Shown here: positions 21,929 through 62,394 of the stretch, piece by piece
How the letters are laid out: every line of letters begins with the position of its first letter
Position numbering within the stretch: the stretch's first letter is position 1
Origin: Sipunculus nudus
Lineage: Eukaryota; Annelida; Sipuncula; Golfingiida; Sipunculidae
Direction of reading: 5' to 3'
Assembly: GCA_026874595.1 (NCBI GenBank)
Contig: CM049306.1
Location: 2,866,019 to 2,930,018, forward strand
DNA length: 64,000 nt
Position numbers and translations under genes: made by a program
The notes under the pieces: generated by a model
What the model was told of the DNA's origin: nothing
The model's input: the letters and a program-made list of their open reading frames with translations, nothing else
The model's database searches: none

Positions 21929-23198
21929 TAACTAGAATACGGGTAGTCGACAAGCGACTACGTGTATCCGCCAAAATCGGAGTAGGGCGGGAGAAGTGAG
22001 GCATGGATTGAGTGGCAAGGGAAATAGAGTTACACGTGTTACAATCTGCCACTAGACATGATTGTAGGTGGCGCCACCTGTTATTTGAACAATAAACTAT
22101 CCAAGATATATACAAAATATATATGCAAAATTTCAGGTGGGAAAGTCAAACCACTGCAGAGATGATTTTATCCCACAGCAGACAAACAGATGGACGCTGT
22201 GCAAAAATGGCTGCACCATACACCATTTTTGTGTATGTTATAAAGCTATCCAAGGGCTACATTTGTGTAATTTTTTTTCCTGATTGGTCGAACGAGTCCG
22301 GAGATATAAGCATTAATGTCTGCAGCGTGAACGTGAATGTAGGTGGCGCCACCTGTCATAAAATCAAGAAAGCTATCCAGGATGTATACGCATGCCGAAT
22401 TACAGTTAATATGGTCAAACCATTGCAGATGGATTTTTGTGTATGTTATAAAGCTATCCAAGGGCTACATATGTGTAAATTTTTTTTCCTGATTGGTCGA
22501 ACGAGTCCGGAGATATAAGCATGGTTGTCTACAACGTGTACAAACGGTTCCCGAGATATGAGCTTGGATGTCTGCAGCGTAAACGTGAATGTAGGTGGCG
22601 CCACCTGTCATAAAATCAAGAAAGCTATGCGGGATGTATACGCATGCAAAATTTCAGGTGGAAAAGTCAACCCACTGCAGAGATAATGAGTGATTTTAAC
22701 CCAAGGCAGACAAACAGATGGACGCTGTGCAAAAATGGCTGCAGGTGGCGCCACCATTTTTGTGTACGTTATAAAGCTATCCAAGGGCCACATTTGTGTA
22801 AATTTTTTTCCTGATTGGTCAAACGGTTCCCGAGATATGAGCTTGGATGTCTGCATCGTGAACGTGAATGTAGGTGGCGCCACCTGTCATAAAATCAAGA
22901 AAGCTATCCCGGATGTATACGCATGCCGAATTTCAGGTGAATTAGTCAAACCACAGCAGAGATATGAGTGATTTTAACAGACGAAACAGACGCACAAACG
23001 GACGCTGGGCAGAGATGAAAGGTCAGAGGTCAAGGCCATTTGGTTAGGCACCAGTTTACATGTGACCCGATAATTGGTGTAAGTTTTGGAAAAATCCGTT
23101 CAGTAGTCTCAGAGGAGTTCTCCGGAAACGAACGCGGCGGCGGCGGAACCTGGTCAAAAACATAGTATCCGCAAAACTTCGTTTAGGCGGATACAATT
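21929..23198 (+). mobile_element. Family C element, copy C1 (Helentron/HINE-like)
   Basis: It starts AACTAGAATACGG with the hairpin GTAGTCG-acaag-CGACTAC (21943-21961) and then TGTATCCGCC (21963-21972). It ends with AACATAGTATCCGC ... GCGGATACAA, an 8-bp perfect stem (23165-23172 with 23187-23194) whose outer arm is the inverse of TGTATCCGCC. Interior units carry GGTGGCGCCACC at 22067, 22342, 22593, 22743 and 22873 and a GAGATATGAGC phrase. Open frames inside are short and shared by all units, so not genes. Confidence 0.75.
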
Positions 23199-26100: not shown

Positions 26101-27290
26101 ACAGCTACTGTCCTAGTGTAATACAGCACCAAATAGTGGAATGCTCACATCTCACATACCCAGTTTCCCTCATCTCTCATATCCTCAACATAACCTACTT
26201 GAAAGTTCAGGTGGCGTGAACAATAAAAATAATATGATTTGTACATTTCCCTATAAAGCTTCAAGGCAGCAAAACCACTGATAAATACAAGGAAAGCTAT
26301 CCTCTTAATAGATAAAATATTAAGTAGCTTTAATTTCATTATTTAATCCTGTAGGTTTGTTATCTGCTAGTACAAATCAAAACCCTTAGGAAATTCACAA
26401 ACAGGGAGGGTTACACACAAAATCATCCTTGCTGGTATAAAAAAATATGAATAGATATAAAAAGTAAACATTCTTCCAAGTAAAAGAAAGATTCATGATA
26501 CAATAACAGGTTGTAGAAAAGCTACCCATCATACAGCATCAACGCACTGCATTATCACACTCCGGTTAACATGGACGGAATAGAAAATGAAAAGATATCA
26601 ATAAATCACTTGGCACAGTACAACAGACCAGCTGATGATCAGTGGCCCAATTCACAAGAAACACACAGGTCCCTAACCAACTTATAACTATCACCACATA
26701 CAGAATCACGCTACCCATGATAAATACCTGTTTCAGGGCAACCTTGACCATATAAGGTCACAGAAAAAAACAAATGTTTAGCCAGAAAGAAAATGATACT
26801 TTTGAATTTGACCTAAGAATAAAAATAAACTTACCTTGACCTTTTCTCTTTGCACATTTTATCAAATGATTGACAAGCTTTGTGTCTGGCTTTGGCTAAG
26901 ATGTTCTGCTTAATTTGATTCTGATGTTATTTATATAGATGATTTCAGTGAAGACAGGGATTGACACTAAATAAATCTCCCACTCATGAGGTGACTATTT
27001 ATCGTGAGGGCAACTTGACCTGATGTCTGAACTTTCCCCCTGGGCTACTGATATGTTAGGCCATGTCCTTGACATGTTGTAATAAATGAAAACAAATAAT
27101 AAATTAATCATGTACAGACTTATGACCTTTGAAAGTAAACCACCAAACACCCCAAAAAGGTCACAAAACAGATTTGTATTATAATTTTAGTTTATAAATA
27201 GAAACAATATAACTTTAAGGACTACTTGCTTTAACCAGAAGACTGGTGAATTTTTGGCTTCACTTGTCCTCTGGGCAAGTGGTAATTTTC
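23199..27290. other. Low-repeat interval downstream of the FAM184A-like gene
   Basis: No gene recognised on either strand. It contains a short GT repeat near 23893, long C runs at about 25151 and 25186, and a CTTGTTACAAG palindrome near 24479. The part from about 25300 to 27290 lacks the element ends and palindromes seen elsewhere, so some of it may be transcribed 3'UTR of the minus-strand gene. Confidence 0.4.
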
Positions 27291-27296
27291 TTTAAT
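27291..27296 (-). promoter_or_regulatory. Candidate poly(A) signal ATTAAA for the FAM184A-like gene
   Basis: ATTAAA on the minus strand about 275 bases after the stop codon. Canonical AATAAA on this strand occurs at 26078-26083, which would give a 1.5 kb 3'UTR. The intervening DNA is relatively free of recognised repeats, so either is possible. Confidence 0.25.
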
Positions 27297-27569
27297 GTTG
27301 GCCCTTAATGTCTGCTTTTAACTGATAAATGCAACGTTAGAATGGAATGATAAGTTTTTTTCATATTGTGCAAATGATGACAACAATTTTAACAAAAAAA
27401 AAAAACAATGCTTTTAGATTAAAAAACTGATAATAGCTGTTTCCAATGTATAAATAAGAAAGGAGGGTCTCACAAGCTGTCAAGTTAAAGAAATTGTTAA
27501 CAGTAAATATGTACCACATTGTATTAAACAAAACTTTGGCAAGTCAATGTTTCCATGGCACCACTGTGT

Positions 27570-27704
27570 TCACCTGACAAACTTCTTCATTGGAGGGAGT
27601 GGGTTGTTGGGATTGATTCTCTCGTGGTGTATCGGTGAGCCAGGCAGCGGGTTTAGTCGGGTACCAACGTTCAGGGATGGAGCACTCTGGTTTTTACCTT
27701 TCTT
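27570..27704 (-). CDS. FAM184A: FAM184A-like terminal exon with stop
   Basis: 44 codons plus TGA (27572-27570): KKGKNQSAPSLNVGTRLNP, then LPGSPIHH, then a PNNPLPPMKKFVR end. The acceptor TTTCAACAG is good. The basic start and the RLNPLPGSPIH core match the vertebrate tail in style; the tail here appears shorter than in vertebrates, which extend further. It is probably a disordered region outside the coiled coil. Confidence 0.92.
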   Translation of the reverse strand, partial: KKGKNQSAPSLNVGTRLNPLPGSPIHHERINPNNPLPPMKKFVR

Positions 27705-30700
27705 CTGTTGAAATAAAATTCAAATAAACTAAATCAATACAAAAATTAAATTCAGAAAATTTGCTGCTAAAAAAGCTCTTACTGAATGTTTGATTCTTAT
27801 GGAATCATGTTGAGCATACCTACAGTAAAGTTAATACATCACATTCAGCCACTCTACTGTGGAAGTATTTGTGTCATCATATGAATGTTCACTTGTGATT
27901 ATTACTGTTCAATTTGACTTAGTGTTGTAGTCAGCCAGTAGGTGGCAGCACCAGCTAGCAACTTCATGATCTGAGGTTCATGAGCCTACCTTGACCACAA
28001 GTGGGTTGAGAAGGCCAACTTGAGGATTTGCGTTGAAGACCTTGTTAAAGTTTGTCTCTCTGTTCACTAGCTCCATCTGGTAGTACTTCTTCTCATCCTG
28101 TAACATGAAAGACATCTCCTATAAGTTACACCTCAACAAAATCAAATATAATTTGGAGTATGTGTAAATAAAGATATAAAGGTGCAAAATTTAATCAGCT
28201 GACATGGACATGTTTTGTTTTAAAAAATACGGCAGAAAAATTTCCTTATTGAAGATGACTATTTTAGGATTCATTTTAGAGTTTTAAACAGCTGTCAGAA
28301 GCTTATATGCCTACAGGTCACCTTACACATAAGCAATGTCATCAGTTACCACTGGTCCTCACTGGATCAAATCTAAAATCCAACTATATTAAGTGAAACT
28401 GGATGGTATCAAGATTGTCATATTTTTCAGGAACAAAGACAACAGTCAAAATTTTCCTATCCATTCTTTTACCTTTTCTGTTTAATGTTAATTATATTGT
28501 TTATTCAGTTTTCTGTTCATTATATTATATACACTCAAGTCCACTTTGTGTCATATCGGTTAATAGAAAATCCCGTTTATTGTCACATAAATCGGAAATC
28601 CCAAACCATTTCCTCTATATACAATGGTAAATATGACCCTTTAATATCACTGAATATTGTCAAAATCCTGTTTATTGTCATGCTTGGAACCCTTGGCAGT
28701 AATACCAGTTCACAGTTAATATCACATAAACAAGGGACCCATGGGTCACGGCGCTCAGCTGTTATACATGATAAAAAATATGATTTGGGAAAGAGGCACA
28801 TGCTTGTTTTGTGTGGTAATAAATATAAGCTTTATTATGAGTTGTTGGTGTTTAGCTTATGTATGATTTTGATAGTATCTTTGGAGACAGGGGAGAGGAT
28901 TGATTTCATTTATTTTATTAACAAATGGAGTGCTATTGTCACACAGATTTTGACATGGCCATATAACTTATAAGCAGAACATATAATACAAGAGTTTAAC
29001 TATTTATTAAAATTAAATAACAAATATTGTGCCAATATAATTTTTATGAAAAAAACAAACAAGAAAATCATATGATTTTTTAAAATTAACTAGAATACGG
29101 GTAGTTGACAAGCGACTACATGTATCCGCCTAAATCAGAGTGGAACGGGTGAAGTGAGGCATGGATTGAGTGGCAAGGGGAAATAGAGTGAAGTGTTGCA
29201 TATTAGCATGGATGTCTGCAGCCAAATGGTGTATGTAGGTTGCGCCACCTACCACAAAATCCAGAAAGCCATCCAAGTTGTATACATATGCAAAATTTGA
29301 GGCAGATAAGTCAAAACACTATATGTTTATGAGTGATTTTAGCCCGTGGCAGACAAACAGATGGAGGCTGTGCACAAATGGTTGGAGGTGGCGCCACCAG
29401 TTTTGCGTATGATAAGGAGCTATGTGAGAACTATACACATGCAAAACTTTGGCCCAATCGGTCAATCGGTTCCCAAGATATGAGCTTGGATGTCTGCTGC
29501 ATAAACTAGAATGCAGGTTGCGCCACCTGTAATAAAATCAAGAGAGCTGTCGGGGATGTATAAACCTGCAAAATTTCAGGCAGATATGTCAAACCACTGC
29601 CGAGATATGAGTGATTTTATCCCATGGCAGACAAACAGACGAGAGCTGTGCAAAAATGGCTGCAGGTGGCGCCACCAGTTTTGCATATGATAAAGAGCTA
29701 TGTGAGATCTATACACATGCAAACTTTTGGCCCAATCAGTCAAACAGTTCCTGAGATATGAGCTTGGATGTCTGCAGTGTAAACGTGAATGTAGGTGGCG
29801 CCACCTGTCATAAAATCAGAAAAGCTATCCAGGATGTATACGCATGCCGAATTTCAGGTGAATTAGTCAAGTCACTGCAGAGATATGAGTGATTATAACC
29901 CAAGGCAGACAAACAGATGGACACTGTGCAAACATGGTTGCAGGTGGCGCCACCATTTTTTGTGTATGTTATAAAGCTCTCCAAGGGCTACATTTGAGCA
30001 AAAAAATTTTCCTGATCGGTCAAACGGTTCCCGAGATATGAGCTTGGATGTCTGCTTGGATGAATTTCGTAAAATTCCGCCCAGCGGTTACAGAGGAGTT
30101 CTCCGGACACCTACGCGGCGGTGGCGTGCAGCTGAAAACATAGTATCTGCAAAACTCTGTTTTGGCAGATACAAATATAACTGAAATGATTATTGAAATA
30201 ATATTATATCATATATTCATGAATGCATTCATTAATACATTTTGAAAGTATCTGCACTGGTATTCAAATACTTTCATTTTTACCTGAATTCCCATTCTTA
30301 TGCAATAAAATTTTTTAATGCAGTACATATTCATATTCGTATTCAAATACATTTGCAAAGCATTCGCACCATGTCTAGTATTTATTCAGTTTTAGCCAAA
30401 CAAAGATGTTGAGATTCCAGAAAATACAAAATTCACAAATTTAAATAATGATCATAAGTACCTGGTTTTATGGCTTTTATTTATATTAAAAAAAATAAAT
30501 GTAATATATTCACTTTGGACTACTTTCACATCAATCTACACACTAGACACAGTAGGAATCTAGATTAATATTATCAACTGCATCTTTGTCTATCATTAAT
30601 TTCCTTCATATGATCCCTAATTATTATTAATGAATAATATTATTTATTTTTTTATCATTAAAATTTCACTGAAAAATACCATAGGTGACTGCATGGTGTT

Positions 30701-33700
30701 ATTTGGAATAACATTGACATTGACATTCTATCCATCCATACAAGATTCTTACATCATCAGTAACTGCAAGTTAATTTTCTGTTACTCGTCAACTAACAAA
30801 TTCCTTTTCTATTAATTTTTCTTTAATTTGTTATAAAAAAAACCAATACAAAAATATTAATTTATTGTTATGTTGTTTCTCAAAACAGCTACTAGATGAG
30901 TTGGGTTGGACACCTGGATCAACTGTGGCTGGGCATTAGCTGCCTGGCTGCCCCAGTGTATGCTTCGCTCAAGCATGCATAATCTGATGAAAGGTCAACA
31001 AGGTCAACATACAGGTGACTGAAGAGGGGCTGGATTAAGCCTGGGTCTGACATGGTCTCATAAAAACATTAATAAAAGCTACAATATTTGGCCAATTTCT
31101 TTCAGCTTTCTAAACTACAAAGATGAAATCCTTATGTGTGCATGATATGAAAATTATATCAACAGTGCTCTCAGGAAACAAACCTGCCATGGTCAAAGTT
31201 GGGCAAAATTTAAGGTACTAATTTTATATTTACTAGCAATTACCTGTGCTACGCAGTTTTGGGCGAGCATTTAGTTCTGATGTCAAATAGCTTATCATAG
31301 ATGAAAGTCTTGGTTGTAACCGTCATAGGATCTCTTTGAATCTGAAATTTGGTATAAGTATTCTGTTTTTGAGTTGGCCTTGTGTCCGAGTCTGGATGAC
31401 TTGGACGAATATGTTCCTGTAGAATGGTGGAATATCTTCTGACAAACCCAGAGCATATGTATGATGAAAACCATGACAATCCGTAATGTCCAGAGGAGAT
31501 ACGGAAGACCACACAAATCGCGTTCCGCTATTAATATATAGATTCATTATATGCATGGTGTTATGCATAAAACTAAATGAAGCCAAGCGATTGGCCGGAG
31601 AATTTTCGAAGAAGTGATAAATAAAGTCATTTTATATGAAAATATATTATGCTGAACATCGCCATTTAAAGTTGCCCTCCGACCCCGTCAATCCGCCAGT
31701 AAAGGAACCTGTTATCTTGCATGGGACGTGTTCTCGATAATTGCATTCCCGTTATCAGGCACAAAAACTGAGCACTCACATGGTCGGGCAATTCCGCTGC
31801 GCAAAAGTTCGTGGTAGCATTATATTATATGGTACATATAAAGGTTGTATATATTTTTTAAATATCACGCACTCCCAAGGACCTTTCCTGTTTGAAAGCT
31901 AAGCCAATGTTTTCCGGTGAGACAATCACTGCATTCAGGCAGTGTGTAAAACTCGGACCCCACGGACTCCGGATCCCGGACCCCAAGAAAAAAATTGGTA
32001 ATTCTGAAACTTTCATGGTAATTTATCCAGATATTTTAGCATAAACGTATTAAAGACATATTTAATATTATGTTTGGTTAAAAATTAGTAGAAATAGTCT
32101 GATTTGCACAAAAAATTGATAATTAACAGTTACGGACCCTGGCGCACGGACCTCACGTACTACACTGACCCCGTTTACTTGTTGTTTTACCATTTCTTTA
32201 GTACATATTTTCACATCACGTTTAACCATAACACCCATGTGATTAATTATTGTGTTATTATTTGTATTTTTACATTTTTATGTCTCAGTTTTTATTCATA
32301 ATTTTATATATGCTATTTATTACATTTGTGTAGCGTTTTAAAAAGTACAATAATTAAACACATTTACAAAATCATTATTTTGGAACCTATAGTTGCTTGA
32401 AATGCAAGTAATCAACATTTCCTTTCGGTTTTTATATTATTGCCAGCTTTAGATTGCATGGTTGGTATGAATGGAACACGAAACCTGTTGTGATGTGGAA
32501 GAGCTCGGAATTATCAGTCTCGGGTCCGCAACAACTGTTAGTGCACATCAAATAAATTTCCCCCAGTATAAAATTGTCATTTATAATAAAACATAAAAAT
32601 TATATTTAGTATGTGACATGAGAGCTATTTTATTCCTCTTTCAGTCATAAATAAAAAAATATGAGCGGTGGTTACTGTCCGTCAAAATGGAACAGTCAGC
32701 AAAGTCAAGTTAAATGAGGTCCATCTTCATCGGAAGGTTTTTGTTAACTTAAATCTTTCAATGAATCGGTCATTTTCAAAGCTGCAACATTTAGGGACTT
32801 TGCTCTGTTTTTTCATCAGCAATAGTGGTTTTAATCGGTTTAAATGATGAAAAATGAGGAAATTGGTTTTCGGGGTCCGGGGACCGTGGGGTCCAGGTTT
32901 TACACACTGCCCTGCAATCACTTACGTTCGGAAAATTTTCATTCTTTAAAAGATCCCCCTTTTAAGCATTCTCCTCTTGTGCACAATAGACCTTTTTGCT
33001 GCGCGGAGGTTGCCTTTTGAGAAGGGATCACCAATGCGGATTATTTCGGGCCAGTCACCACGAAATGTTAGAAAACCCCAGATAGGGCCCCCGGAGTAAA
33101 ACTCTGTCCCGCCATCACACACCCTATGGCCATTGTGTTACCGGGCCCAAAGACACAAAGAAAAGAGGCGCCCATGGGGGAGCAAATATTAAAATTATTA
33201 ATTATGCAGGTAATACGCAAATATTGCAAATAAAAGGGGGCGGAATATCTTCGGACAAACCCAGAGCATATGTATGTCGAAAATCACAGCAATCCGTACG
33301 GCGGTATCAGAGGAGATACGGAAAATCACAAAAATCGCCTTATGCTATTAATATATAGATACAAATAACTTATAAAATCTGAAAATTCAGAACTGATTTT
33401 TGGTATTCAATTGAATCTTGATTAAATAATGTTACATCCCTGACAAAAAATCTCTAGCTTCAGCAATCCACTTGTTAAGGGAGTAAATATATTTCTTGAT
33501 TTTTTAAAAAGTGTTTGGGCCCATAACTTAAAACAATTACGCAATACTGACATCATTTCTGGCATGTGCAATGTATAGAAAAATATGTATATTATATATA
33601 TGATCAAAGTCAGATCAGTGGTTTTGATATGAGCAAGTCTTACAGTGTAACAATGCGTTTTTAATGGAAAAATGAAGTTTTTCATTAATATTTCGAATGA

Positions 33701-51700: not shown

Positions 51701-54700
51701 ATTGAAGTTTTTGTATGAAATTTTTGTCTATTTTCGGGGGTATTTGGGGCCCCATAGCTCAAAAGATATGGGTAAAAGAGACCTAATTTCATGTTTCCAA
51801 GGAGATTTTTTATGGACCTCTCAGAATCTCAAGTTACAAGATTCTAGGTCCAGTGGTTAGGATTTGTGCCTGGTTAACGGACAGACGGACAGACGGACGA
51901 CAGACAAAGAGTGAACCCTATAGCTCAGATGACTTACAGTCAGCTGGGCTAATAAAATAAAGTGCTCTACTAGTGACTTGTGGTGATGCATTAAATACCT
52001 CAGCACATCCCCTTCCTCTGTTGTCTCACTCACTCCAGAAACTTATCTACAAATCTCCCTCTGTCACTCAATATACAAATCTACATTTCTCCCTCCGTCA
52101 CTCCATATACTTAACCACATTTCTCCCTCTGTCACTTCATGTACTTATCTTCACATTTCCCTCTTTCACACCATATACTTATCTATGTCTCCCTCTGTCT
52201 CTCCCTTCATGCACTTATCTACATTCCTCCCTCATGTCACTCCATATACCGTAAAATCTCCACTTAAAACAGCACTTCTGATTAAAACCGCACCCAGACT
52301 TCGCCGAAATTCCAGGTGAGACATCGCGAGGGGCTCAAATACTAAGAACCCCCCTTTAAAACCGCACCAACTTTCCCTACGGAATGATTTGACAAAAGAC
52401 ACAATCAAGCTATCATCTAGAAATGAACACGCGTAGGTTGCGACTCAGCCATTCCTGTCCACTTTTAAATTCCTTGGGCATTTTATTTAAACACATAACA
52501 CTTTTTTGCAGGGTCACCCAAGCACGAAGTTTGGGAAGACGTAAGGGCGGGTGAACCTCTGCCTGTTTATACAGATTTTATATTCCGTGCCGTATTCTTG
52601 TTTGCTACTGAATTGTCAATATATTTTGAAAACTAGATGTGTCGGAACGACATGAATGCCCCCGCCTGGGGCAAATTAGAAACATTTGTTTAATTTGGAA
52701 AAATTTTTTTAAGTTCAGGAGGTGTCTATGGTCAAAAGTAGTTCAACAAGGGCAAAATGCAAACTCGATCTGTTACGGGTCATTATCAAGCAACACACCA
52801 AAAATCAGGCCAGTATCTGCAGGCACTGTGAAAAAAGTCCATACATGTGCATTTTCCATAAAAATTTCTGTTGTTCATGTTGAGGAGCCGTAAAACAATC
52901 AAAAGTAGGTCAACCGGGATGAAACGCAAACTCGATCTGTAACTGTCATTATCTGCCCACACACCAAAAATCAGGCCAATATCTGCAGACATTGTGAAAA
53001 AAAGTCCGTACAACTGTTTGATTTCGGAAGGACGGACATGGGTAAAACTATATGCCCCGGCCAATTGTGGCGGGGGCATAAAAATTTTTGATGAAAATTT
53101 CATTTTCTGGAATTACTCGGAAGATTCAAATCATTTTCATACCGGTTACTTCGGTATTATCATCGTCACATCGTACGTTGGCATCGCTCCATGTCACAAT
53201 TTACTGGCGCGTTTGAAAACATCACTGGTCAACTTAACTAAATATCAAGTAACTGCAGTTACCTTGTCGATATACGCACGTACAGGAAACAACACTTGAT
53301 AACGGGTGATTTTAAGGTGAAATTAAAGTGGCCAGTCGGTGTAAGCAAGTTTTTTTTCCTGAAGAAAGTTTCCGTGTGGGGAGCCATTTTGTCAAGGCAG
53401 TGTTCACGCAAGGCACGCTGGGACGAAATAGGTGGCTGTTCTGTTTACCACCCACCGCTTACAGCCGTTCAAAATATTCTCAGCAGAATACCGGGGCGTT
53501 TCAGCACATGGCGGCACTCAAACTTGATTTTAAAACGATCGTCTGCCATTGTGTGACTCCTTACGATGTCAGCTTTTTATTCATTTTATGTTTTGAACAA
53601 ATAATCATTGCTAAATAATGCCGCCAATGGGTTTAAAGTAGGCTTTCATTTCAATTTTGCTTGACCATGCCCAACGAAGTGGGCCGCTGTGTGTTACAGC
53701 AGGGTTGTTGTAAACGTATTATTTGGTGACAATTACCAAAATTTTATAACAAGTTATATATCACACGAAAACTAATCAGCAATATTTAATTTATAAATAA
53801 CAAATAATTGTAAATAATACATTTACACACGGCTCCCATGCATGAGAGACTGCTGCTAAGAACGGCCTTCGAAAGTTGCAATATTATCGCCCACTCGCCG
53901 GCCCCAAAACGATGTCTGTCAGGAAGATATTCAGGAAACCCTTCCAGTATAAACCGCACAGTGCTTTAAGGAAATAAACCTGATTTCAAGGTTTTGAATT
54001 TCTTGATTAAACCGCTGTTTTAAGTGGAGATTTTACGGTAACTACACGTGTCCCATTGTCTCTGATGAGTTCAGGTAAACAGCCTGCTACTTGATACAGA
54101 GTAACTCATCACTATATTACCTTCTGTCTTGCCAGCTCCATTGCCCGCTCCAGCTCCATGCGCGCTGCCTGCATCATCTCTGCATGAGATCGGGTCTGTT
54201 GCTCCAGCTCGACGCCGTGCATCCTCTGCAATTCGTTCTTCAGGGAGTCTGTCACATAAAGCAAATCCAAACACTAAAGCCAGGCAATTGATCAATTTTA
54301 TAGGTATTGAGACAAAATGTAGGAATTTATAAGAATTTTCAACAAAAATATATTGAAAATCTAGGAGTTTTCATTGCACAATCATGGTTTGCATGGTCAT
54401 GCTACCCCACAGCAGCTTTATATGGTCTGTGTTAAATGGCTGCACTTGTATGAATGCATCACTTAAATGGACAGATCTGCAAAAGGACTGAAAATATTCA
54501 ATAATAATCTGTTTATATAACAATAACTAGATATTTCTTGGTACCGCAGGTGCCATAATATCCCCAGACAATTAATCCCCCCCCCCCTTTAAGAAAAGGC
54601 CCCCAATCTTCAGCAACAATTAATATCAGACCACTCATAGAAAAGGTTAATCACCCCAATTTCAATATAAATCATCCCCTAATCCATGTCTATGTATTTG

Positions 54701-57008
54701 CATAATATGAAAGAAATCTGTCCATTAGTTTTTGACTTATAATGCTCACAGTACTGTAAAGTAGCAATGATGGGGTATTAAACGGCACAAAAACAAGTAA
54801 AAGAATACCAGGTTGCGCTACCAGTTTCCGGTACACGACAACACTATCCAAGATCTTCGGTCAAGTTGATTTTTGGACCAATCCATGCACCCCTTATCGA
54901 GATATTAATGATTTTGTGTAATTTTCACCATATATGGCAATATTCAAAGTCAAGGCCACTCTCATAGGAAAGGTCATGACCCCAGTTTAAATAAACATCA
55001 TCCCATAACCCATGTCTATGTATATGCATGATGAGAAAGAAATCTGTCCATTAGTTTTTGACTTACAATGCTCACAGTACTGTAAAGTAGCAATGATGGG
55101 GTATTAAACGGAACGAAAACAAGTAAAAGAATAACAGGTGGTGCCACCTGTTTCCGGTACATGACAATACTATCCAAGATCTTTGGTTAAGTTGATTTTT
55201 GGACCAATCCATGCATCCCTTATCGAGATATTAATGATTTTGTGTGATTTTCACCATATATGGCAATATTCAAGGTCAAGGCCACTCTCATAGGAAAGGT
55301 CATGACCCCAATTTAAATAAACATCATCCCATAACCCATATCTATGATATGCATAATATAAAAGAAATCTGTCCATTAGTTTTTGACTTATAATGCTCAC
55401 AGTACTGTCAAGTGGCAATTTTTGGGGTATTAAAAGGCAGGATAACAAGTAAGGAATAAAAGGTGGTGCCACCAGTTTTGGAACATGACAACCCTATCCA
55501 TGATCTTCCATCAACTTGATTTTGGGATCAATCCATGCAAGATTTCTTGAGATATTTAAGAATCTGTGTGATTTTCCCCCAAAACTGGATCTTTCAAGGT
55601 CAAGGACACTCTCCTAATAAAAGTCATGACCTCATTTTAAATAGGCATCGTCCTCTCAACCATATCTATATATATAGTAAGTTTGGTTAAGATCCGTGAA
55701 ATATTTTTGAGTTATCGCCCCAACAAGATTTATATGAAAACATAGTATCCCCGACTTTGTCTGGGAATACAATAATTCAGTATTACAATTATATTGGAAA
55801 TATAATTGGGCAGTGAAAAAATATTGAAAAATATAGCGTATTGCTGGAATTGCTAAAAGCTGGAAAATAGAGAAAAATCATATGAGATGATTTTTTTTCA
55901 TAGTAGAATATAGAAAATATGTGGAGTTGGAGATTACAATTATGTCATGATCTAAGAGCTTGTGCATTATCTGTTTTTGTCAACTGCATGGTGTCATTCT
56001 GGAAATCAAACTTAGGCAAGATATTTTATTGTTATCACAGCGACATCACAAAGTAGCCTAGTGACCCATGACCTTATTAATATGCGTGGATATTGCCCAT
56101 AATCAAATTCGGGCAAGATGATCTGTTGGTAACTAGTTATGGTGAGTTTTGTGAAAAAAATATCAAAACTCTGGTAAGTTATTGCGGCAGCAATAAAAGT
56201 TTACGGATGGACAGACAGGCAGATGGATGGACAGACAGTGGGTATACCATAATACTCCCCCCTTAAGACGGGTGTATAAAAAACATGAAGTCACACAATT
56301 TTATGAGCATCATAAATTTATATTCCATGGAATAGCCCACTCTGCCACTTACTGTACTCATTTCATACTCATTTAATTGCCCTTGCTTGATGGAGTCAGT
56401 ATGTTAATACTAACCTAATTATCATAGAAAAGGATATCCACAATTTTTAGAATTTTCAAGAATTTTTCAAATGTTATCAATGAGACAAATTAAAGATTTT
56501 TCCATTTTTCTTTTTGTCTATTCCGCAATATCCTACAGAAATCTAGTTTACAGAAATAATGATCTTTGTTATCAGTTAAATCATGCCATACTCCTCAAGG
56601 TCGTCAGTCATCTAGAAGATCTTTTCAAGGAATCTTCCAAAATAAGCTAAATTCAAGTATTTCAAGGTCTTAAGCACTTTAAAGCATTAAGATTACTTTA
56701 AAAATTTCATGGAGTTTAAAGTCAGTGGGAAAACCCTGTATTTTGGCCTGCAGACAGTAGTCAACATGAGTATGGGAATATTATCATCTGTTAATATCTG
56801 ATATCTACGATAAAAACAACTTGTTGAACACTGACAATGTATCAGCATATTTACCCATCTTCTCAACATGTTTCTGTCTGAGTGCTTCCAGTTCTTCAAC
56901 TTTGGTTCTCTCTGCTGCATCTTTTAAACTTTCTACAGTGATTTTGTGGGCTTTGGTCTGGGCCTGTATTTCCTCCATGTGGCGCTCTTGCAATCGTTTT
57001 TCCAAATC
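27570..57008 (-). CDS. FAM184A: FAM184A-like coiled-coil gene, 3' part (seven joined exons)
   Basis: Seven minus-strand exons (154, 128, 185, 147, 118, 108 and 135 bp) splice in compatible phases into 325 codons ending in TGA, with GT and AG at every junction. The product is a long charged coiled coil followed by a short proline/asparagine-rich tail. Landmarks agree with my knowledge of vertebrate FAM184A: AARMELERA, an AQFNEAQEMLKDKISALQ stretch, NRDSRPEDLE, YYQMELVNRETNFNKVFN, NPLV, and a tail with RLNPLPGSPIH. Family members are about 1,000 residues, so roughly the C-terminal third is here and the N-terminal FAM184 domain lies beyond the window. The molecular function of the family is poorly known and I infer none. 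Vertebrates have A and B paralogues; an invertebrate copy may be the single pre-duplication gene. Introns are repeat-filled. Confidence 0.93.
27990..28097 (-). CDS. FAM184A: FAM184A-like exon 6 of window (most conserved block)
   Basis: A 108-bp, phase 0 to phase 0 exon of 36 codons: DEKKYYQMELVNRETNFNK then VFNANPQVGLLNPLVVK. The acceptor is TTACAG and the donor GTAGGC. The LVNRETNFNKVFN sequence followed by an NPL motif is the clearest match to vertebrate FAM184A and fixes the identity of the gene. A short 285-bp intron separates it from the last exon. Confidence 0.95.
29088..30175 (+). mobile_element. Family C element, copy C2
   Basis: Same ends as C1: AACTAGAATACGG, hairpin GTAGTTG-acaag-CGACTAC (one G-T wobble), then TGTATCCGCC (29121-29130). 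The 3' stem is GTATCTGC (30143-30150) with GCAGATAC (30165-30172). The 3' stem differs from C1 at one base on each arm, preserving pairing. GGTGGCGCCACC occurs at 29397, 29665, 29793 and 29943. It lies inside family A copy A2. Confidence 0.75.
31237..33365 (+). mobile_element. Family F element nested in A2
   Basis: It starts ACTAGCAATTACCTGTGCTA with a small hairpin CTGTG-cta-CGCAG and ends with GCTATTAATATATAGATA (about 33345-33365). A very similar end-type block (GACAAACCCAGAGCATATGT to CTATTAATATATAGAT) also occurs internally at 31439-31547. Such starts and AATATATAG ends are familiar from Helitron-like elements in other invertebrates, from general knowledge. The middle is occupied by the MITE at 31931-32914. 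No coding capacity was identified. Confidence 0.5.
31931..32914. mobile_element. hAT-like non-autonomous element (MITE) with 8-bp target duplication
   Basis: The terminal inverted repeats share GGCAGTGTGTAAAA and GGACCCCACGG; the right end reads CAGGGCAGTGTGTAAAAC on the minus strand. The identical octamer CAATCACT flanks both sides (31923-31930 and 32915-32922). An 8-bp duplication with a CAG-type terminus is the hAT signature. The 984-bp interior has no transposase-like frame. The left end has a few extra bases (GCATT) before CAGG. Confidence 0.75.
34606..35096 (+). pseudogene. Possible decayed Tc1/mariner-like transposase fragment
   Basis: Frame 34606-34788 reads AIAVMHAGYSPALIYRHINV then NYDHCVSSFINKGNVCDHMP, which has the spacing of a Tc1/mariner N-terminal helix-turn-helix (a SPALIYR-type turn, a VY-like helix, then a GNV linker). 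Frame 34863-35096 (KVPRKAGGFE, then TSIAVKLNNRLTMPTARK) could be the second helix-turn-helix. The two are separated by a stop and about 75 bases. No catalytic triad is visible. Inverted TGTGCCGCAT motifs lie at about 35108 and 35195. The similarity is by eye only. Confidence 0.3.
35097..35457. other. Spacer, nothing recognised beyond a small inverted repeat
   Basis: Contains TGTGCCGCAT near 35108 and ATGCGGCACA near 35195, an inverted pair that might be the edge of the preceding transposon relic. No gene seen. Confidence 0.35.
35458..35806 (+). repeat. About 30-bp tandem array
   Basis: Units contain CTGTTTCCTGTTCATTATAT with variable AT-rich tails, about 11-12 copies. Frame-open stretches here are low-complexity artefacts. 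The array lies in a FAM184A-like intron. Confidence 0.9.
35855..37732 (+). mobile_element. Family D element, decayed copy D2
   Basis: It starts CTAGAATTTCTTAGTATATC with AGACAATTAATCCCCCC and ends GCATATTGACTTTGTCTTAT with GATACAATA, aligning to the ends of D1 (54525-55773), but the 5' hairpin has decayed. Internal units carry AGTGGCGCCACT (36302-36313), a changed but still perfect palindrome, and AATTTCAGGCCAATA. About 36400-36520 looks like foreign AT-rich DNA. It ends 55 bp from an exon. Confidence 0.55.
37786..37903 (-). CDS. FAM184A: FAM184A-like exon 5 of window
   Basis: One base plus 39 codons: LEEAEDRYRNRDSRPEDLE through DNQELMQRLL. The acceptor is TTGTGTAG and the donor GTGAGT (near-ideal). 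The RNRDSRPEDLE motif is a strong FAM184 signature. The upstream intron (37904-41713) is largely a 53-bp tandem array, and a decayed family D element ends about 55 bp into the downstream intron. Confidence 0.94.
37965..41200 (+). repeat. 53-bp intronic tandem array, about 60 copies
   Basis: The unit contains CTGATCATGGTGCAGGTACA, AGGTACAGTTATACCT and ACACATGTCAGCTATACTTT. Copies are nearly identical, varying at GTC/GCC before TGATC and at a few 3-base deletions. The segment with CAATTATACC and ACATGCCAGC recurs exactly 424 bp later (eight units: 40381 with 40805, 40557 with 40981), so there has been recent multi-unit duplication. It fills most of the intron between exons 41860-41714 and 37903-37786. 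Confidence 0.97.
41201..42058. other. Intron flanks around exon 4
   Basis: Apart from the coding exon at 41714-41860 this holds short intronic repeats of the GACATGATCTGTAG type (four or five copies, about 41455-41725), on the downstream side of the exon. No other gene. Confidence 0.5.
41714..41860 (-). CDS. FAM184A: FAM184A-like exon 4 of window
   Basis: One base completes a Lys codon, then 48 codons (QQEQKLREQHKASMEE to KISALQI), then two bases. The acceptor is GTTACAG. I chose the donor AT|GTCAGT because it is the only nearby GT that keeps frame with the next exon (giving Met) and because the block AQFNEAQEMLKDKISALQ followed by a hydrophobic residue matches the family. The DNA just downstream in the intron contains four short repeats of the type GACATGATCTGTA. 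Confidence 0.9.
42059..44785 (+). mobile_element. Family B element, copy B1
   Basis: It starts CAAGGCCTACAGGCCTAATG, with a small palindrome AGGCC-taca-GGCCT, then GCGAACCTGTG (42080-42090). An inverted end (AACAGGTTCGC then TAAAAAT) is seen at about 44172-44190. Homology with copy B2 continues to about 44785. The interior includes TGGCACCACCAGTCTTGTAT units and about 37-bp CTGAGTGAACTCTTGACCTG repeats (42650-43230). No coding frames of note. Confidence 0.65.
44832..48090 (+). mobile_element. Family A-ended element, copy A4, with three tandem 3' ends
   Basis: It starts AACAAGTGACCCAGGGGTCA then GACGCTCAGCTGA and ends with the 29-nt hairpin at 48055-48083 followed by AATAAAA. The same 3' hairpin with its upstream GGAC-rich tract also occurs at about 45964-45992 and 47011-47039, a spacing of about 1,045 bp. 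Each large unit holds about three 340-bp subunits (GGGGGGTACTTCGGAGCCCC, GAGACCTAATTTCAGG, ACAGGTGGCGCCACCAGTCT, CCATGCAAAGAATCATGG). Subunits 46138 and 47185 are nearly identical. Short frames inside are by-products. Confidence 0.7.
48091..49444. other. Intron sequence, no element assigned
   Basis: No gene other than the flanking exons. Three copies of a GGTGTCCGCTC phrase occur at about 48827, 48890 and 48958, which may be an old transposon edge. Otherwise nothing recognised. Confidence 0.35.
49445..49629 (-). CDS. FAM184A: FAM184A-like exon 3 of window
   Basis: 61 codons plus two bases, from EAEHGMKVAELEEAV to SEANRKL, with the strong donor GTATGT. It starts in phase 0 after TTTTCTACAG. 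Content is typical coiled coil (EEEIRKLQHGIDDLTDEIEAKSKE). The upstream acceptor is unusual in context: the terminus of a family A repeat, with its palindrome TGACCCATGGGTCA at 49644-49657, lies within about ten bases of the acceptor AG, so the pyrimidine tract is at or inside the repeat edge. Confidence 0.92.
49638..51957 (+). mobile_element. Family A-ended element, copy A5
   Basis: It starts AACAAGTGACCCATGGGTCA (perfect 14-bp palindrome TGACCCATGGGTCA at 49644-49657), then GACGCTCAGCTGA. It ends at the hairpin 51922-51950 and AATAAAAT. About six 330-bp subunits like those in A4 are present, more diverged; GGTGGCGCCACC survives at 49822 and 51608. A G run sits at about 51391. The 5' end is immediately next to a FAM184A-like exon acceptor. 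Confidence 0.7.
51958..52248 (+). repeat. About 35-bp CT-rich tandem array
   Basis: Five or six copies of units containing TCTCCCTCTGTCACT and CATATACTTATCTAC (52040-52248). It is interrupted on the right by the TA-flanked element at 52249. Confidence 0.8.
52249..54038. mobile_element. Tc1/mariner/pogo-like non-autonomous element with TA duplication
   Basis: A 25-bp perfect terminal inverted repeat (52249-52273 and 54014-54038, beginning CCGTAAAATCTCC) is flanked on each side by TA. TA target duplications are the signature of the Tc1/mariner superfamily, and the subterminal AAAACCGCACC repeats recall pogo/Tigger elements. No intact transposase was seen; frames at 53296-53618 (+) show no DDE motif. 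A complete family E element (52631-53084) is inserted inside. Confidence 0.75.
52631..53084 (+). mobile_element. Family E element, compact and complete (Helentron/HINE-like)
   Basis: It starts AACTAGATGTGTCGGAACGA with hairpin TGTCG-gaa-CGACA (52640-52652), then ATGCCCCCGCC (52656-52666). It ends AACTATATGCCCC ... GGCGGGGGCAT, where GGCGGGGGCAT (53069-53079) is the exact 11-bp inverse of the 5' segment and also pairs with ATGCCCC (53052-53058) as a 3' hairpin. Two internal units about 165 bp apart share CAAACTCGATCTGT and CACACCAAAAATCAGGCCA. It is only 454 bp, the clearest example of the shared architecture. Confidence 0.8.
54121..54248 (-). CDS. FAM184A: FAM184A-like exon 2 of window
   Basis: The acceptor GTGACAG precedes the exon and the donor GTAATA follows AAG. 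Two bases complete the Asp codon from the upstream exon, then 42 codons read SLKNELQRMHGVELEQQ through AARMELERAMELARQK. The AARMELERA block is a recognisable FAM184A signature from memory of the family. It ends in phase 0. The exon lies just outside a Tc1/pogo-like element that ends at 54038, about 80 bp into the following intron. Confidence 0.9.
54525..55773 (+). mobile_element. Family D element, copy D1 (Helentron/HINE-like)
   Basis: It starts AACTAGATATTTC with hairpin TGGTACC-gca-GGTGCCA (54539-54555, one G-T wobble), then TATCCCCAGACAA (54559-54571). The 3' end carries TTGTCTGGGAATA (55757-55769), the inverse of that segment at 12 of 13 bases, as the outer arm of a GTATCCCC / GGGAATAC hairpin. 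About four internal units of about 320 bp carry AAGAAATCTGTCCATTAG and ACTTATAATGCTCACAGTAC. One palindrome is GGTGGTGCCACC. Confidence 0.75.
55774..56854. other. Intron with a further 3'-end remnant near 56280
   Basis: GGATGGACAGACAGG-type sequence at about 56212-56240 is followed by an ATACTCCC (56252-56259) / GGGTGTAT (56270-56277) hairpin and AAA. This is the same order as in the complete elements, but no matching 5' end was found. The rest is unassigned AT-rich intron. Confidence 0.4.
56855..57008 (-). CDS. FAM184A: FAM184A-like exon 1 of window (coiled coil)
   Basis: This is the most 5' exon seen: 51 codons plus one base, starting DLEKRLQERHMEEIQ and ending KHVEKM. The 3' splice site is TATAG just above 57008 and the donor is GTAAAT below 56855. 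It begins in phase 0 and ends after the first base of a codon, which combines with AC from the next exon to give Asp. The peptide is rich in Glu, Lys, Gln and Arg with leucines at heptad-like spacing, as expected for the FAM184 rod. I found no further exon between here and 64000, so the upstream intron exceeds 7 kb. Confidence 0.88.
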
Positions 57009-57086
57009 CTATACATTGAAAAAGAAACTGGGATGTTATTCAGTGCAAGATCTATTCATTATAAACAGTCAATCATTCAGGTAAAA

Positions 57087-60000
57087 ACAAGGGACCCATG
57101 GGTCATGGCGCTCAGCTGTTATATATGATAAAAAATATGATTTGGGAATGAGGCACATGGTGGTTTTGTGTGGTAATAAATATAAGCTGTATTAGGAGTT
57201 GTTGGTGTTTAGCTTATGTATGATTTTGATAGTATCTTTGGAGACAGGGAAGAGGATTGATTTCATTTATTTTATTAACAAATGGAGTGCTATTGTCACA
57301 CAGATTTTGACTTGGCCATATAACTTATAAGCAGCACATATAATAAAAGAGTTTAACTATTTACTAAAATTTAATCAAAAATATTGTGCCAATATAATTT
57401 TTATTAAAAACAAGGCCTACAGGCCTAATGCGAACTTGTGCATTGGGAAATACACCAGTTATAATGCCTCAATGCTGGACCATTACTTTTCATGTATATG
57501 AACTTTGCAAGTACTAAACATTTTGGATAAGAAACAATTACACAAACATCACTGCTAAAATTCTGGCATAGGTGCACACAACACTAAAAAGATTGTAGCT
57601 GGCACCACCAGTCTTGTATACAACGAAGCTATCAGAGATATATACATAAGCCCAATTTCAGACTGATATATCAAACCCCTCCTGAGAAAAATGTGTGCAA
57701 AAGTCATGGTAGGTGGCGACACCTGTCTTGTGAGCGAGAAAGCCATCAAAGACACAGACAGGTCAAAATATAAGGCCAATACATCAAACTTACCTTGAGT
57801 CTGATGCATGGGGCTGACCAGGCTTAGGTGAGAAAGGCTGTTGCCCCGAGTGAACTGTGACAAATTGCTTGCTCAGACTACTGTACTGAGTGAACTCATG
57901 ACCTGCACCTGGCTAGACTGAGTGAACTTTTGACCTGTACCTGGCTGCATTGAGTGAACTCTTGACCTGTTGCATAATCTGACACAGTTGGCAGTCGGCC
58001 AAAGCTATAAATAGAATGCAGCTACTGCACTGAGTAAACTCCTGGCCCATACCCGGCTGCACTGAATGAACTCTTGACCTGTTGCCTAATCTGATACAGT
58101 TGGCAGTCTGCCAAAGCTATAAATAGATTCAGACTGACCTCTAGCCTGTTGCCAAATCTGAAATAGCAGCCACACCATTACATAAGCTCATGCAGGGGCC
58201 CTGCCCTGAGGGGCTTGACACCCATGAAGTGATCACATGGTGCCCATGAGGTGTTAACATGTCACCCATGAGGTGATCACATGCCATGTGCTTGGCTGCA
58301 CTGATTGAACTCTTGACCTATATCTGGCTGCACTGAATGAACTCTTGATCTGTTCCCAAATCTGAAACAGTTGGCAGTTTCTCAAACTATTTAAAGATAC
58401 AGATTCAATCTTGGCCTGTTGGTATATCTGTTAACACATACTGAAAGACTTTGGTTAAAATTTCTTTTTTCAAACTGACATATTCATAAACTTTTTATCA
58501 AAATATCTAGAATAATAAAAGATGCAGTACTTTCATTGTTAAAGGTCCAATAGTTCTGCCAAAAATCATTCTAGTAAACTTGAACAAAGGCCACCTAAGA
58601 ATAATTTTTGTGCAATGTTACAGAAGATATAATTGAAATAATAATTTTGTAGAAGAACACTATTGCAGTCCTCAGTTTGAATAAGCTTTTCACAACTCAA
58701 CCAAAAATCAACAAACTCAGTATATTCTGATATGATTGATGTCCTAGGATAATTCTTTTGAAAAATTGAACAATTCAACTTGACAACTTTTAAAATATTG
58801 TCAGCTTTTTCCTTATAAAATCTAAGTAAATGCAGATAGCAAAAAAATAAGCTGAATCCCATAAAATTTGAAATGTGACAGATTATTGCATAAAATCTGG
58901 GAATGGTAGCTCCTGCTATTCCTGAGAAATTATGGATTAATATACAGATGACCAATGACCCCCGTACAAAAAGAGGTCAATTCAGGTGGCGCCACCAATA
59001 CCTAAATTTCATATATGACTCATGTGACCAACACTGGCAAAAAATTTGGTGATGATAGCTCTGGCTGTTTCTGAGACTGTCATTTTAGTATGCTTTTTTG
59101 GACAGATGACTAAGTTCAACTTCCTGAACAAAATTGAGGGAGATGGTATAAAAGATTATTTCTGTGAAATATTGAGCAATTTGCCTTGAGTGTTTCGGAG
59201 GAGAAGATTTTTAAAGGTTTTTTTAGCTTTTTCTCTATAAAATTTAAGAAAATTTTCAGATGGCTAATTTTTTTGCATTAAATTTCATGATGCTAGCTCC
59301 AATCATTTTCAAAATAGTATGGGTAAACGTACAGAAGACAAACGCCGCCACACCATCACATTAGTTCACAGTTCACTAAAAATTAATACAGATGCATATT
59401 GAATGCAAAATTGTAATACAGATACATCTCACTGATGGCAAAATCTTGAATTAATTTGACTATGGATACCAATCATTTATAATCCATGTACAGCCGTCTT
59501 TATATACCCACAGAGAGCTGTATAGCTGTGATTGTAAACATTGCCTGGCATGAGGAATATCTAAAAATCATAAATCTACATTTTTTAAAAGCTTTTAAAA
59601 AACATTCTTGTCAATATTAACCATAGATAACCTGAAATCTAAATGTCTAGAGGCATGATGTAATAAATGCTGATAAACTGGTGCCAGTCTAGATGTATCT
59701 AGATATATCTGTGTATCTGCTTCACACAGCTTACATATATGGTAAAATGACTCAATTGAACCTTTATAATTCAGCCAAAATTCATTCTTTGGAACCATAA
59801 AAGACAATAATTATAAGAATTATTCAGGGGATTATTCTTGTAAAATATTAAACAAATTGGCCTCAGTAGGGTCAGTCAAAAAAAAATTTACAGGTTTATA
59901 ACTCATATGGGAAAATACAGCAAAATGGCTAAGTTAAGCTTCCCATAACTCAGCCAAAAATCACTGAACCAAAACCATTTGAACAAACTTGAATTATCAA

Positions 60001-62350
60001 CATCTAAGGATAATTAATGTGTGAGATTTAAGAATTTGGCCTAGTGGTTTTTGAGGAGAAGATCTTTGTAGCCACTGAGCTAAAATGGGCTGTTACAGCA
60101 TATGACTAAATTCAGCTTCCCATAACTCAACCAAAAGTCACTGAACTTAAGACCATTTGAACAAATTTCAGAAAGCACTACCCTAGGATCATTTCTGTGT
60201 GATATAAAACAATTTGGCCATATGGTTTCAGAGAAGAAGTTTTTTGTAGCCTTCAGTATGATACGGGCACTGATGACCCCCGTACAAAAAAGGTTGATGC
60301 AGGTGGCGCCACCAATACCTCAATTTCAGATATGTCTCATGTGAACAACATTGGCATAAAATTTGGTGATGATAGCTCCAGCCTTTTCTGAGATTGTAAT
60401 TTAGTATGCTTTTATGGACAGATGACTAAGTTCAACTTCCTGTAACTCGGCCAAAAATCACCGAACTTAAACCATTAGAACAAACTTGAGAAAGATTATT
60501 CCAGGAATCATTTCTGTGAAATATTGGATAATTTGGCTGAACAGAGAAGAAGATTTTTAAAGCTTCTTTAGCTTTTTCCCTATAAAATCTAAGAAAATGC
60601 AGTTAGCTGAAAAGTAAGCAAAATCCGATATAGTTTTTTAGATGACTAATATTTTGCATAAAATTTCGTGATGCTACCTCTTGCCGTTTTCAAGATAGTA
60701 TGGGTTAATGTACAGACGACGGATGACGCCACACCATCGCATAAGCTCACAGGTTCGCTAAAAATAATAAGAAAATCATATGAGTTTTTAAAATAAACTA
60801 CTATAATTTATTCCTAAAACAACCCTAACAATACAATACACTAAATCAATACAATTATACAGTAAAACAGTGGTATCACAACAAATCAATACAATCACAG
60901 AGAAAATAATGTATGTGCACAGTACCTGGATACCAACACCATCACAACGATAAGTCCTTTAAATGTAAAATCTCGGAGAATGACAGTCCAGAAAGTAAAC
61001 TGAAGTTCAAATGCATAAAATCCAGGAGAAAGTATTTGAAAAATCTATAATTGCCGCATTCGTCGGATAAGGTCCTGACACACGCCTCTGTGTCCGCTGG
61101 AATCTGCTCTGCTGTTCTCTCTCTGGTTCTAAAAAACAGCCTCTTTATATACCTTCACGTCCAAAGCCGAGAATTTTCAACTTCTCGAACAGTCCATAAG
61201 GACCCTACTATTTATATCTATTCCTTTTATTCCTAAAGTTAGGCCGTCACGAAGTGAAATTAATGTATATTTTGCATCTACAAGAAGATATTCATTTTAT
61301 CTGTACAGCGTTATTTGCTATGGTAACGAGTACTCGAGTCCGAGTCGGGTAATGCTTTTCGGGTACTCGAGTCCAAAATTTTGTACCAGTTTCAGCCCTA
61401 GATCAAAGTCAGATCAGTGGTTTTGATATGAGGCAGTCTTAAAGTGTACCAATGGGTTTTTAATAGAAAAATGAAGTTTTTCATTAATATCTCGAAGGAA
61501 TTAAGTCATAGTGACCAAATTCTTGGCATGGTAGGGGATTTTCGAGACATCTAACAGTATGCCAAATTTAAGGAACTTAGAGCTGAAGCTGGGGAGCTGA
61601 GCTCAAGCAAACTGCATAACACTAGCTTGATGTAAACAGTATGTGACATGGTGCTTGAAAACTTGAATTAAAACTACAGTTTTTGATCAACTGGTTTCAA
61701 ACTGATGTTGTTAACAGATAAAATGCTAACAAAAACATGCTTTGAAAATTAATTCCACAGCATTTACATGAAAAAACGTGCCATGGTCAAAGTTGGGCAA
61801 AATTTTTTATTTTTTATTTTTGCTAATATTTTAAAAATTTAAAAGATTTTGATCTAATTTTTGGGTATACAATTTAATTTTGATTAATAAAAGTTATATT
61901 ACTGGAAAAAAAGTGCTTAGCTTTAACAAAATTTGTGTTAAGCGATCAAATTTCGTTCCTGATTATATACAAAATGCATTATGTTTGGGCCCATAACTTT
62001 TTTAAATTATATAATACGGACCTAATTTCTGGCATGTACATAGGAACTATCTGGAGGATTGTTTATGGTAAATATGAGAAAAAACAGAAGATTGGTTTTG
62101 ATATTAGGCAGTCCTGAAGTGTGAAAATAGTTTTTTTAAAAAATTGAGGTTTTTCCTTAATTTCTCAAAGGAATGAAGTCGCAAAGACCCAGTTTTCCGC
62201 TTGGTAGGAGATCTTGGGGACATCTAACATTATGCCAAATTTTGGATTCCTAGGTCCTACAGTTTCAAAATGTGCCACATCTACGGACGGACAGACAGAC
62301 AGACGACCGACAATGAACCATAGTCATAGTTATAGTCAGCTGAGCTAAAA
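57087..62350 (+). mobile_element. Family A element, copy A3, split by family B copy B2
   Basis: The 5' end is ACAAGGGACCCATGGGTCAT with GACCCATGGGTC at 57093-57104, then GCTCAGCTG. The first 330 bp closely match A2. After B2 (57411-60765) it resumes with AAGAAAATCATATGAGTTTT, exactly as A2 continues at 29062. The 3' end is eroded: only TATAGTCAGCTGAGCTAAAA remains of the hairpin (about 62331-62350), preceded by a GACAGACAGAC tract. A region near 61390-62240 matches the A1/A2 interior. Confidence 0.65.
57411..60765 (+). mobile_element. Family B element, copy B2, nested in A3
   Basis: It starts CAAGGCCTACAGGCCTAATG, then GCGAACTTGTG (57430-57440), and ends CACAGGTTCGC (60748-60758) then TAAAAAT, the inverse of the 5' segment with one change. 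About 2.6 kb is collinear with B1 (42059-44785) in the same orientation. GGTGGCGCCACC at 58985 and 60302. The flanks join into sequence equivalent to A2 at 29040-29065, which serves as an unoccupied site. Confidence 0.7.
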
Positions 62351-62394
62351 AAGCTAACTATATAAACAATAACTCATCAAACAGCCTCTACTGT

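Follow-up and report, generated by a model that had tools for sequence, protein, structure and literature searches.

Canonical Helitron1 elements have been defined by a 5'-TC start, a CTRR-3' end and insertion between A and T (PMC5148889), and the published definitions of Helentron and Helitron2 elements (PMC3627910, PMC4067079) match the features that we describe here. The locus in question is a stretch of 64,000 nucleotides from the annelid Sipunculus nudus (GenBank assembly GCA_026874595.1, contig CM049306.1, positions 2,866,019 to 2,930,018 of the forward strand), hereafter called the window. An earlier note, made from its letters alone, had described five repeat families, A to E, with one shared end architecture and a sixth, F, with a similar start, and had placed them in the Helentron/HINE class. 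That placement was right, with Rep-helicase elements bearing both passenger ends now in hand for A and E, and families A–F are almost certainly non-autonomous Helentron-type (Helitron2 group) rolling-circle transposons, that is, HINEs. The class is already known; the surprising part is the strand agreement between neighbouring elements of different families, which rests on one contig.

End architecture and insertion sites

The shared end architecture is real and corresponds to the known Helitron2/Helentron (HINE, DINE-1-like) layout, with its polarity opposite to that first proposed: the AACWAG, palindrome and adjacent segment that had been taken for the start form the 3' end, while the supposed 3' hairpin is the 5' end. 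We call the end bearing the palindrome and CTWGTT the 3' end because the Rep frames of the coding elements described below read toward it. In element sense, the 5' end consists of Ts and a subterminal inverted repeat (subTIR) of 10-13 nt, which in A, C, D and E, though not in B, pairs with an inverted repeat beside it, and which lies a few nucleotides from a 5' terminus mapped by two coding copies in A and by layout only in B–E. The 3' end consists of the inverted subTIR, a palindrome close to the terminus, CTTG (A, B and F) or CTAG (C, D and E), and then TT. The mapped elements are as follows.

16840..19995, plus strand: full-length family F element (HINE) with the 5' end TTTTTAGCTCAGCTAACT, a GTCC microsatellite (16890-16923) and a 3' end of F type
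21930..23196, minus strand: family C element C1; low end is the 3' end (subTIR, palindrome, CTAGTT), high end the 5' end (T-run, subTIR, inverted repeat)
28729..34559, minus strand: family F element F1, split by nested C2
29088..30174, minus strand: family C element C2, within F1
42059..44188, minus strand: family B element B1, matched ends
44832..48088, minus strand: family A element A1; three 5' ends in tandem (45955-45997, 47002-47044, 48046-48088) and a single 3' end
49638..51955, minus strand: family A element A2; 3' end in the apparent pyrimidine tract of a minus-strand splice acceptor
52631..53084, minus strand: family E element, nested in a terminal inverted repeat (TIR) element at ~52245-54045
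54525..55772, minus strand: family D element, matched ends
57086..62350, minus strand: family F element F2, split by nested B2; 5' subTIR at 62336-62345
57409..60764, minus strand: family B element B2, inserted within F2; the empty sites in paralogous copies are a T-tract, without target duplication beyond the Ts

Family F, of which a start alone had been noticed, is thus complete in three elements. As to the segments said to return inverted at the opposite end, all of them stand at the starts as described and have an exact partner in A, C and E; those of D and B return inexactly. The D 13-mer occurs once, and its inverted partner is off by one base; the exact partner of the B segment, at 60748, is part of a different copy, B2, with one mismatch each in B1's own partner near 44180 and in the start segment of B2. 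When the first and last 60 nt of each element were compared, the longest exact inverted match (in brackets, how many of 300 shuffles matched that length) was 11 in A1 (0), 7 in A2 (23), 10 in B1 (1), 6 in B2 (108), 10 in C1 (1), 6 in C2 (141), 9 in D (2) and 11 in E (1); 400 random pairs of 60-nt stretches from the window gave a match of at least 9 in 9 cases and of at least 10 in 4. A2, B2 and C2 are therefore indistinct on their own, and the case is carried by the better copies and by the genome.

Folding against dinucleotide shuffles bore out the hairpin end in A, C, D and E and its absence from B, in agreement with the earlier note, with z-scores for the 5' hairpin of -4.4 in A, -5.4 in C, -2.3 in D and -3.9 in E. 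Taken singly, the palindromes of the 3' end have weak support from their folding energy (z -0.1 to -2.0). Scanning both strands of the window for CTWGTT after a stem of at least 6 bp returned 10 sites, of which 7 are family ends, where 20 shuffles averaged 3.05 sites; C2, D and E were missed.

The interior also has the parts expected of HINEs, namely a left-part microsatellite and central tandem repeats. Next to the 5' end comes a run of GTCC type, which is long in F (8.5 units) and shorter in A and E (16 nt in A2, 8 nt in A1 and in E); in the window it is absent near the 5' end of B and throughout the C and D elements. Central tandem repeats are present in A, B, C and D. Tandem 5' ends occur not only in A1, with its three, but also in two A coding elements, with two each, and arrays such as A1, in which several 5' ends go with a single 3' end, fit missed termination of rolling-circle replication.

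Across the 1.43 Gb of genome searched, exact 3' ends number at least 7,364 for A, 6,280 for B, 4,851 for C, 17 for D and 2,456 for E; the counts are lower bounds, as the A–D patterns excluded G from the fifteenth position after CTWG and the E pattern demanded TT, and reversed-pattern controls gave 0 or 1 match. Among the matches listed, TT stood directly after CTWG in 97 of 100 for A, 93 of 100 for B, 99 of 100 for C and 15 of 17 for D, and a third T came next in 61 of 100 for A, 57 for B and 50 for C. Other copies of F provide empty sites for B2, which are T-runs of 5-8 with no duplication beyond the Ts. Target duplications of fixed length, which had been named in advance as a sign against the class, are therefore lacking at the single clean empty site, and the TT flanks of A–D together with the B2 empty sites describe the T-rich insertion without target-site duplication that is proper to Helentrons and HINEs. 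In 4 of 200 A and B places, again among the matches listed, the 3' end lies directly against the 5' T-run of another element, so that the elements make targets for one another.

Some further features of the window should be kept apart from this argument. A candidate further family end, AAGGCTGATAGCCTCAGCCTTGTT, lies at 41386 (plus strand), and comes from a scan whose three unassigned sites are no excess over shuffles. The TIR repeat at 52245-54045 is about 1.8 kb long, with ends resembling ACCGTAAAATCTCCACTTAAAAC, and long minisatellite arrays occupy 1080-3459, 6439-8447, 37962-41205 and 62381-64000, with units of 52, 64, 53 and 73 bp.

Coding elements and rival explanations

At least 143 matches to PF14214 (Helitron_like_N) were listed in the genome, seven of these matches within frames of more than 2,000 codons, and together they represent fewer loci. 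We examined 28 Rep loci, 8 of them read over at least 16 kb and 20 in a stretch of 2.6-3.2 kb downstream of Rep. The search that the earlier note had recommended, for an autonomous Rep/helicase element with the same ends, succeeded at both ends for A and E. The A coding element, of 14.9 kb, bears both passenger ends and was found on the minus strand at C17:35625477-35640366 and C5:42907356-42923488; on C17, its 3' end lies ~1.0 kb past a frame of 2,342 codons and its 5' end 6.8 kb before that frame. Identity between the two copies begins within one base of the junction of TTTTTA with GCTCAGCTGA and extends to CTTGTT, so that the A boundaries agree between copies and do not lie elsewhere, another outcome that would have spoken against the class. 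The hexamer AGTGCG on both sides of the C5 copy is not found at the C17 copy and was taken as chance. This element encodes Rep, a PIF1 helicase and a probable endonuclease, the last scoring 34.5 bits for Exo_endo_phos_2 in a related C13 copy, above the cut-off of 27.4. Its 5' side carries A-type central repeats with 74-89% identity in long matches, and the A passenger therefore looks like an abbreviated form of it.

The E coding element, of 12.0 kb, likewise has both ends (C3:41766493-41778503, minus strand) and encodes Rep and PIF1 in separate frames, with no endonuclease detected in an 815-residue piece of the helicase side; a second E-type Rep locus is 98.6% identical to it in the last 1,206 nt before the 3' terminus. 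More generally, 15 of the 28 Rep loci have a window-family 3' end some 3.3-4.8 kb after Rep, including L060, where two ends are in range and it is ambiguous which, if either, belongs to the Rep element. From the pattern counts, we estimate about 2 exact A–E ends per 100 same-strand stretches of 2.6 kb, and the true chance rate is somewhat above this figure, given that the scan tolerated one subTIR mismatch.

Coding copies of the same type share the 1.2-1.6 kb up to the terminus, which is the maximum compared. Between coding types A, F and a third type, G, known here from its 3' ends at four loci, the 34-nt 3' end (subTIR, palindrome, CTWGTT) is 83-88% identical, and the 1.6 kb inside it does not align. 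Relative to A, both arms of the G palindrome have changed in step (GACCCATGGGTC against GGCCCATGGGCC), with one pair broken in 2 of the 4 G copies. Over 791 shared columns, the Rep-helicase of A is 65% identical to that of F and 34% identical to that of E. As a separate observation, L031 and L060 each contain a stretch of ~0.6 kb with an A-type 3' end that starts right at the 3' end of another Helentron-type element; the two stretches are 79% identical over 651 nt, and the arrangement looks like the addition of a further terminus downstream.

With these coding elements, the placement of the families can be weighed against other classes. It is very improbable that they are miniature inverted-repeat transposable elements (MITEs) of a cut-and-paste TIR transposon with decayed ends, even though they have short inverted repeats near both ends and a high copy number, and even though a similar bivalve element, Pearl, was at first called a MITE (PMC7492417). 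The repeats are asymmetric, no fixed duplication is seen at the one clean site, that of B2, and the 3' ends are followed by TT; moreover, the coding elements with the two ends of A or of E encode Rep and a PIF1 helicase. Hardly more credible is their assignment to canonical Helitron1, to which the 3' palindrome near a CTAG end in C, D and E would be congenial. Against it stand the 5' boundary of A, which is a T-run with no TC at the subTIR, the CTTG and not CTRR with which A, B and F end, the TT and not a single T that follows the end, and the presence of a subTIR and a 5' hairpin.

A different question is whether the families all go back to one ancestral passenger, with selection holding its end structure as its sequence drifted, which is close to the earlier view of a radiation that keeps end structure while sequence turns over among families unrelated in sequence. 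The families are less unrelated than that. A and F share a subTIR, B1 is 64-66% identical to C1 and C2 over ~240 nt, and A–D have in common an internal motif of their central tandem repeats, the 12-nt palindrome GGTGGCGCCACC, which occurs 18 times exactly in the window (22067-60302), always in A, B or C. Allowing up to two mismatches, 32 of its 37 occurrences fall within A–D and 5 outside mapped elements, against a shuffled mean of 0.12 and maximum of 1. (In the literature, the only match to GGTGGCGCCACC was a chitinase paper, in the part available.) This kinship, and the nearly identical 34-nt 3' end of coding types A, F and G, speak for one radiation. Against it, E has no GGTGGCGCCACC in the window even with two mismatches, and the A and E passengers match, at both ends, different Rep elements whose core is 34% identical. 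The end structure has indeed been kept, while the ends of A and E come from different Rep lineages, and a single radiation therefore seems unlikely to us. Rather, we attribute the unlike end sequences of A and E to their distinct Rep lineages, and the end structure common to the families to a need of related enzymes: the shared architecture is thought to be what this Rep-helicase group requires.

Several observations weigh against the Helentron-type assignment, or at least against its completeness. Family B has no 5' hairpin beyond dinucleotide shuffles (fold z 0.3) and a single, unreplicated candidate partner, beside the Rep at C3:52151343; the kilobase upstream of the B-type end there had no full-length second copy among 40 places scored, and this end could be that of a passenger present by chance. 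For C and D, no Rep partner was found among the 28 Rep loci, and no window-family 3' end was seen at 13 of the 28 (the four group 1 elements named below among the 13); of the 28, 20 were read for only 2.6-3.2 kb downstream of Rep. The F-type Rep element matches family F at its 3' end only, and the F 5' end was not found within 12.5 kb upstream of its Rep frame. The endonuclease of the C17 A copy scores 22.0 bits for Exo_endo_phos, below the Pfam cut-off of 24.5, and the 5' boundary of the E element comes from a single copy. For E, no clean empty site was obtained. Of 40 host copies scored, 6 can be aligned through the joint, at 79-84% and with a diverged middle, and the fetched host copies with better-matching flanks have, between two T-tracts, about 56-80 bp that are absent from the filled site; moreover, E copies in 701-bp pieces show the 5' end in only 2 of 18, and thus give no useful set of paired flanks. 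A further group of Rep elements, group 1, tried as partners for C and D (C11:50385293, C4:36174940, C13:66180677 and C8:39040575), had no window-family end in the sequence read, 16 kb in three and 32 kb in one; these elements exceed 16 kb, and their own ends were not located in that sequence. The C13 copy, the only one of this group scanned for domains, has an OTU protease and an endonuclease domain.

For the HINE families, published models suggest how movement may proceed. A Rep-helicase supplied in trans would nick between CTWG and TT and at the 5' T-run junction, and would peel off one strand (PMC3627910); the 3' subTIR would then pair with the 5' subTIR, opening the 5' hairpin and marking the end point (PMC3627910), and the peeled strand would be joined into a T-tract without target duplication. 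The parts needed in cis and the candidate enzymes are in hand, and transposition itself is what we propose from sequence.

Strand agreement between neighbouring families

As judged from the ends matched in the window, all ten elements between 21.9 and 62.35 kb have the minus orientation, and the element at 16.8-20.0 kb is on the plus strand. Open minus-strand stretches at about 28.0, 41.8, 49.5, 54.2 and 56.9 kb, read by eye and not with gene-finding software, resemble the exons of a single long coiled-coil gene, for two of whose exon peptides Pfam and PDB searches gave nothing convincing. All seven elements lying between putative exons (F1, C2, B1, A1, A2, E and D) follow the sense direction of this gene, and F2 and B2 are on the same strand beyond its last putative exon. 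The 3' end of A2 (49638-49671) adjoins the pyrimidine tract of an apparent minus-strand splice acceptor, CTTGTTTTCTACAG, after which an open stretch begins.

Beyond the window, orientation was taken from the first 100 listed places for each of the A, B, C and E patterns (400 in total) on contig C1 (not to be confused with element C1), where the lists reach different distances and the pair analysis was limited to 0.1-16.9 Mb. Among 233 pairs of elements from different families no more than 30 kb apart, 204 agree in strand, a figure reached by none of 2,000 shuffles (the best had 150). The agreement declines with distance, from 275 of 402 pairs at 30-100 kb through 657 of 1,062 at 100-300 kb to 1,661 of 3,214 at 300-1,000 kb, and beyond ~300 kb it is at the level of chance. 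Of 64 blocks of 50 kb with at least two families, 49 are unanimous, against 21.9 expected and a maximum of 35 in 2,000 simulations. These pairs are not independent, nested pairs are counted among them, and one end of the contig was sampled; when neighbours closer than 8 kb were dropped, the nearest element of another family within 30 kb still agreed in 159 of 189 cases. Within single families, the observed number of same-strand neighbours was reached by 5 of 5,000 shuffles for A, 0 for B and 52 for E, and was not significant for C alone (331 of 5,000).

The supply of T-tracts was rejected as the cause of this orientation, a weak contribution being possible: the window has 126 T5+ against 139 A5+ tracts in its unmasked part (masking spared most of the F1 and F2 bodies and the whole F element at 16840), and T9 tracts agree weakly with the family elements within 30 kb, in 71 of 122 cases. 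An internal piece of the TIR repeat gave no agreement with the families within 30 kb (15 of 33), using the 18 of its 100 listed places on contig C1 up to 35.6 Mb. At Rep loci elsewhere, some neighbouring ends are opposed (H_C13b, L030), and at L024 and L028 the only end runs against Rep, so the agreement may not hold at those loci.

An orientation effect has been described for IS200/IS605 and Tn7 (PMC5371812), and, in the literature on Helitron and DINE-1 orientation as far as available, no title addressed Helentrons. One possible account, which we advance with reserve, is that Helentron-type elements choose the strand that they enter by way of T-tracts that are single-stranded on one strand, either on the non-template strand during transcription or at replication forks. 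The scale of the agreement would fit long genes. If it arises at insertion rather than by later loss, the orientation of these elements would be a genome-wide record of the direction of transcription or replication, and, if it extends over the genome, sequence alone would test where eukaryotic rolling-circle transposons find their single-stranded targets.

Comparison with known systems

The families described here resemble the Helentrons, HINEs and DINE-1 elements of Thomas et al. 2014 (PMC4067079) in having subTIRs at both ends, an inverted repeat beside the 5' subTIR and a 3' palindrome, in entering T-rich targets without modifying them, in non-autonomous copies that outnumber coding ones, and in a Rep-helicase partner with, for A, a probable endonuclease. 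They depart from that description in that the partner of E has no detectable endonuclease, and in that coding elements with unlike interiors have nearly the same 34-nt 3' end. With Helitron2 as described by Bao and Jurka 2013 (PMC3627910), they share asymmetric terminal inverted repeats (ATIRs), the 5' ATIR standing inside a 5' hairpin and the 3' ATIR directly upstream of a 3' hairpin, insertion after Ts without duplication, and, in the E partner, a RepHel protein without endonuclease; the differences lie in B, which lacks the 5' hairpin, and in the partner of A, which probably encodes an endonuclease. Side by side in one genome, one architecture is kept by distinct Rep lineages that differ in whether an endonuclease is detectable.

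The available parts of two other papers (PMC10294476, PMC11136912) added nothing on partners. Also similar are the Cg_HINE elements from the Pacific oyster (Vojvoda Zeljko et al. 2020, PMC7492417), which also form many families per genome, contain satellite-like central repeats, target oligo-T, and have a left-part microsatellite of GTCC/GTCY type, which is clear here in F and shorter in A and E. Whereas the oyster study, in the part available, did not succeed in connecting its families with any autonomous Helentron, both ends of A and of E are tied here to coding elements, which links passengers of very high abundance, with their satellite-like repeats, to elements that share their ends.

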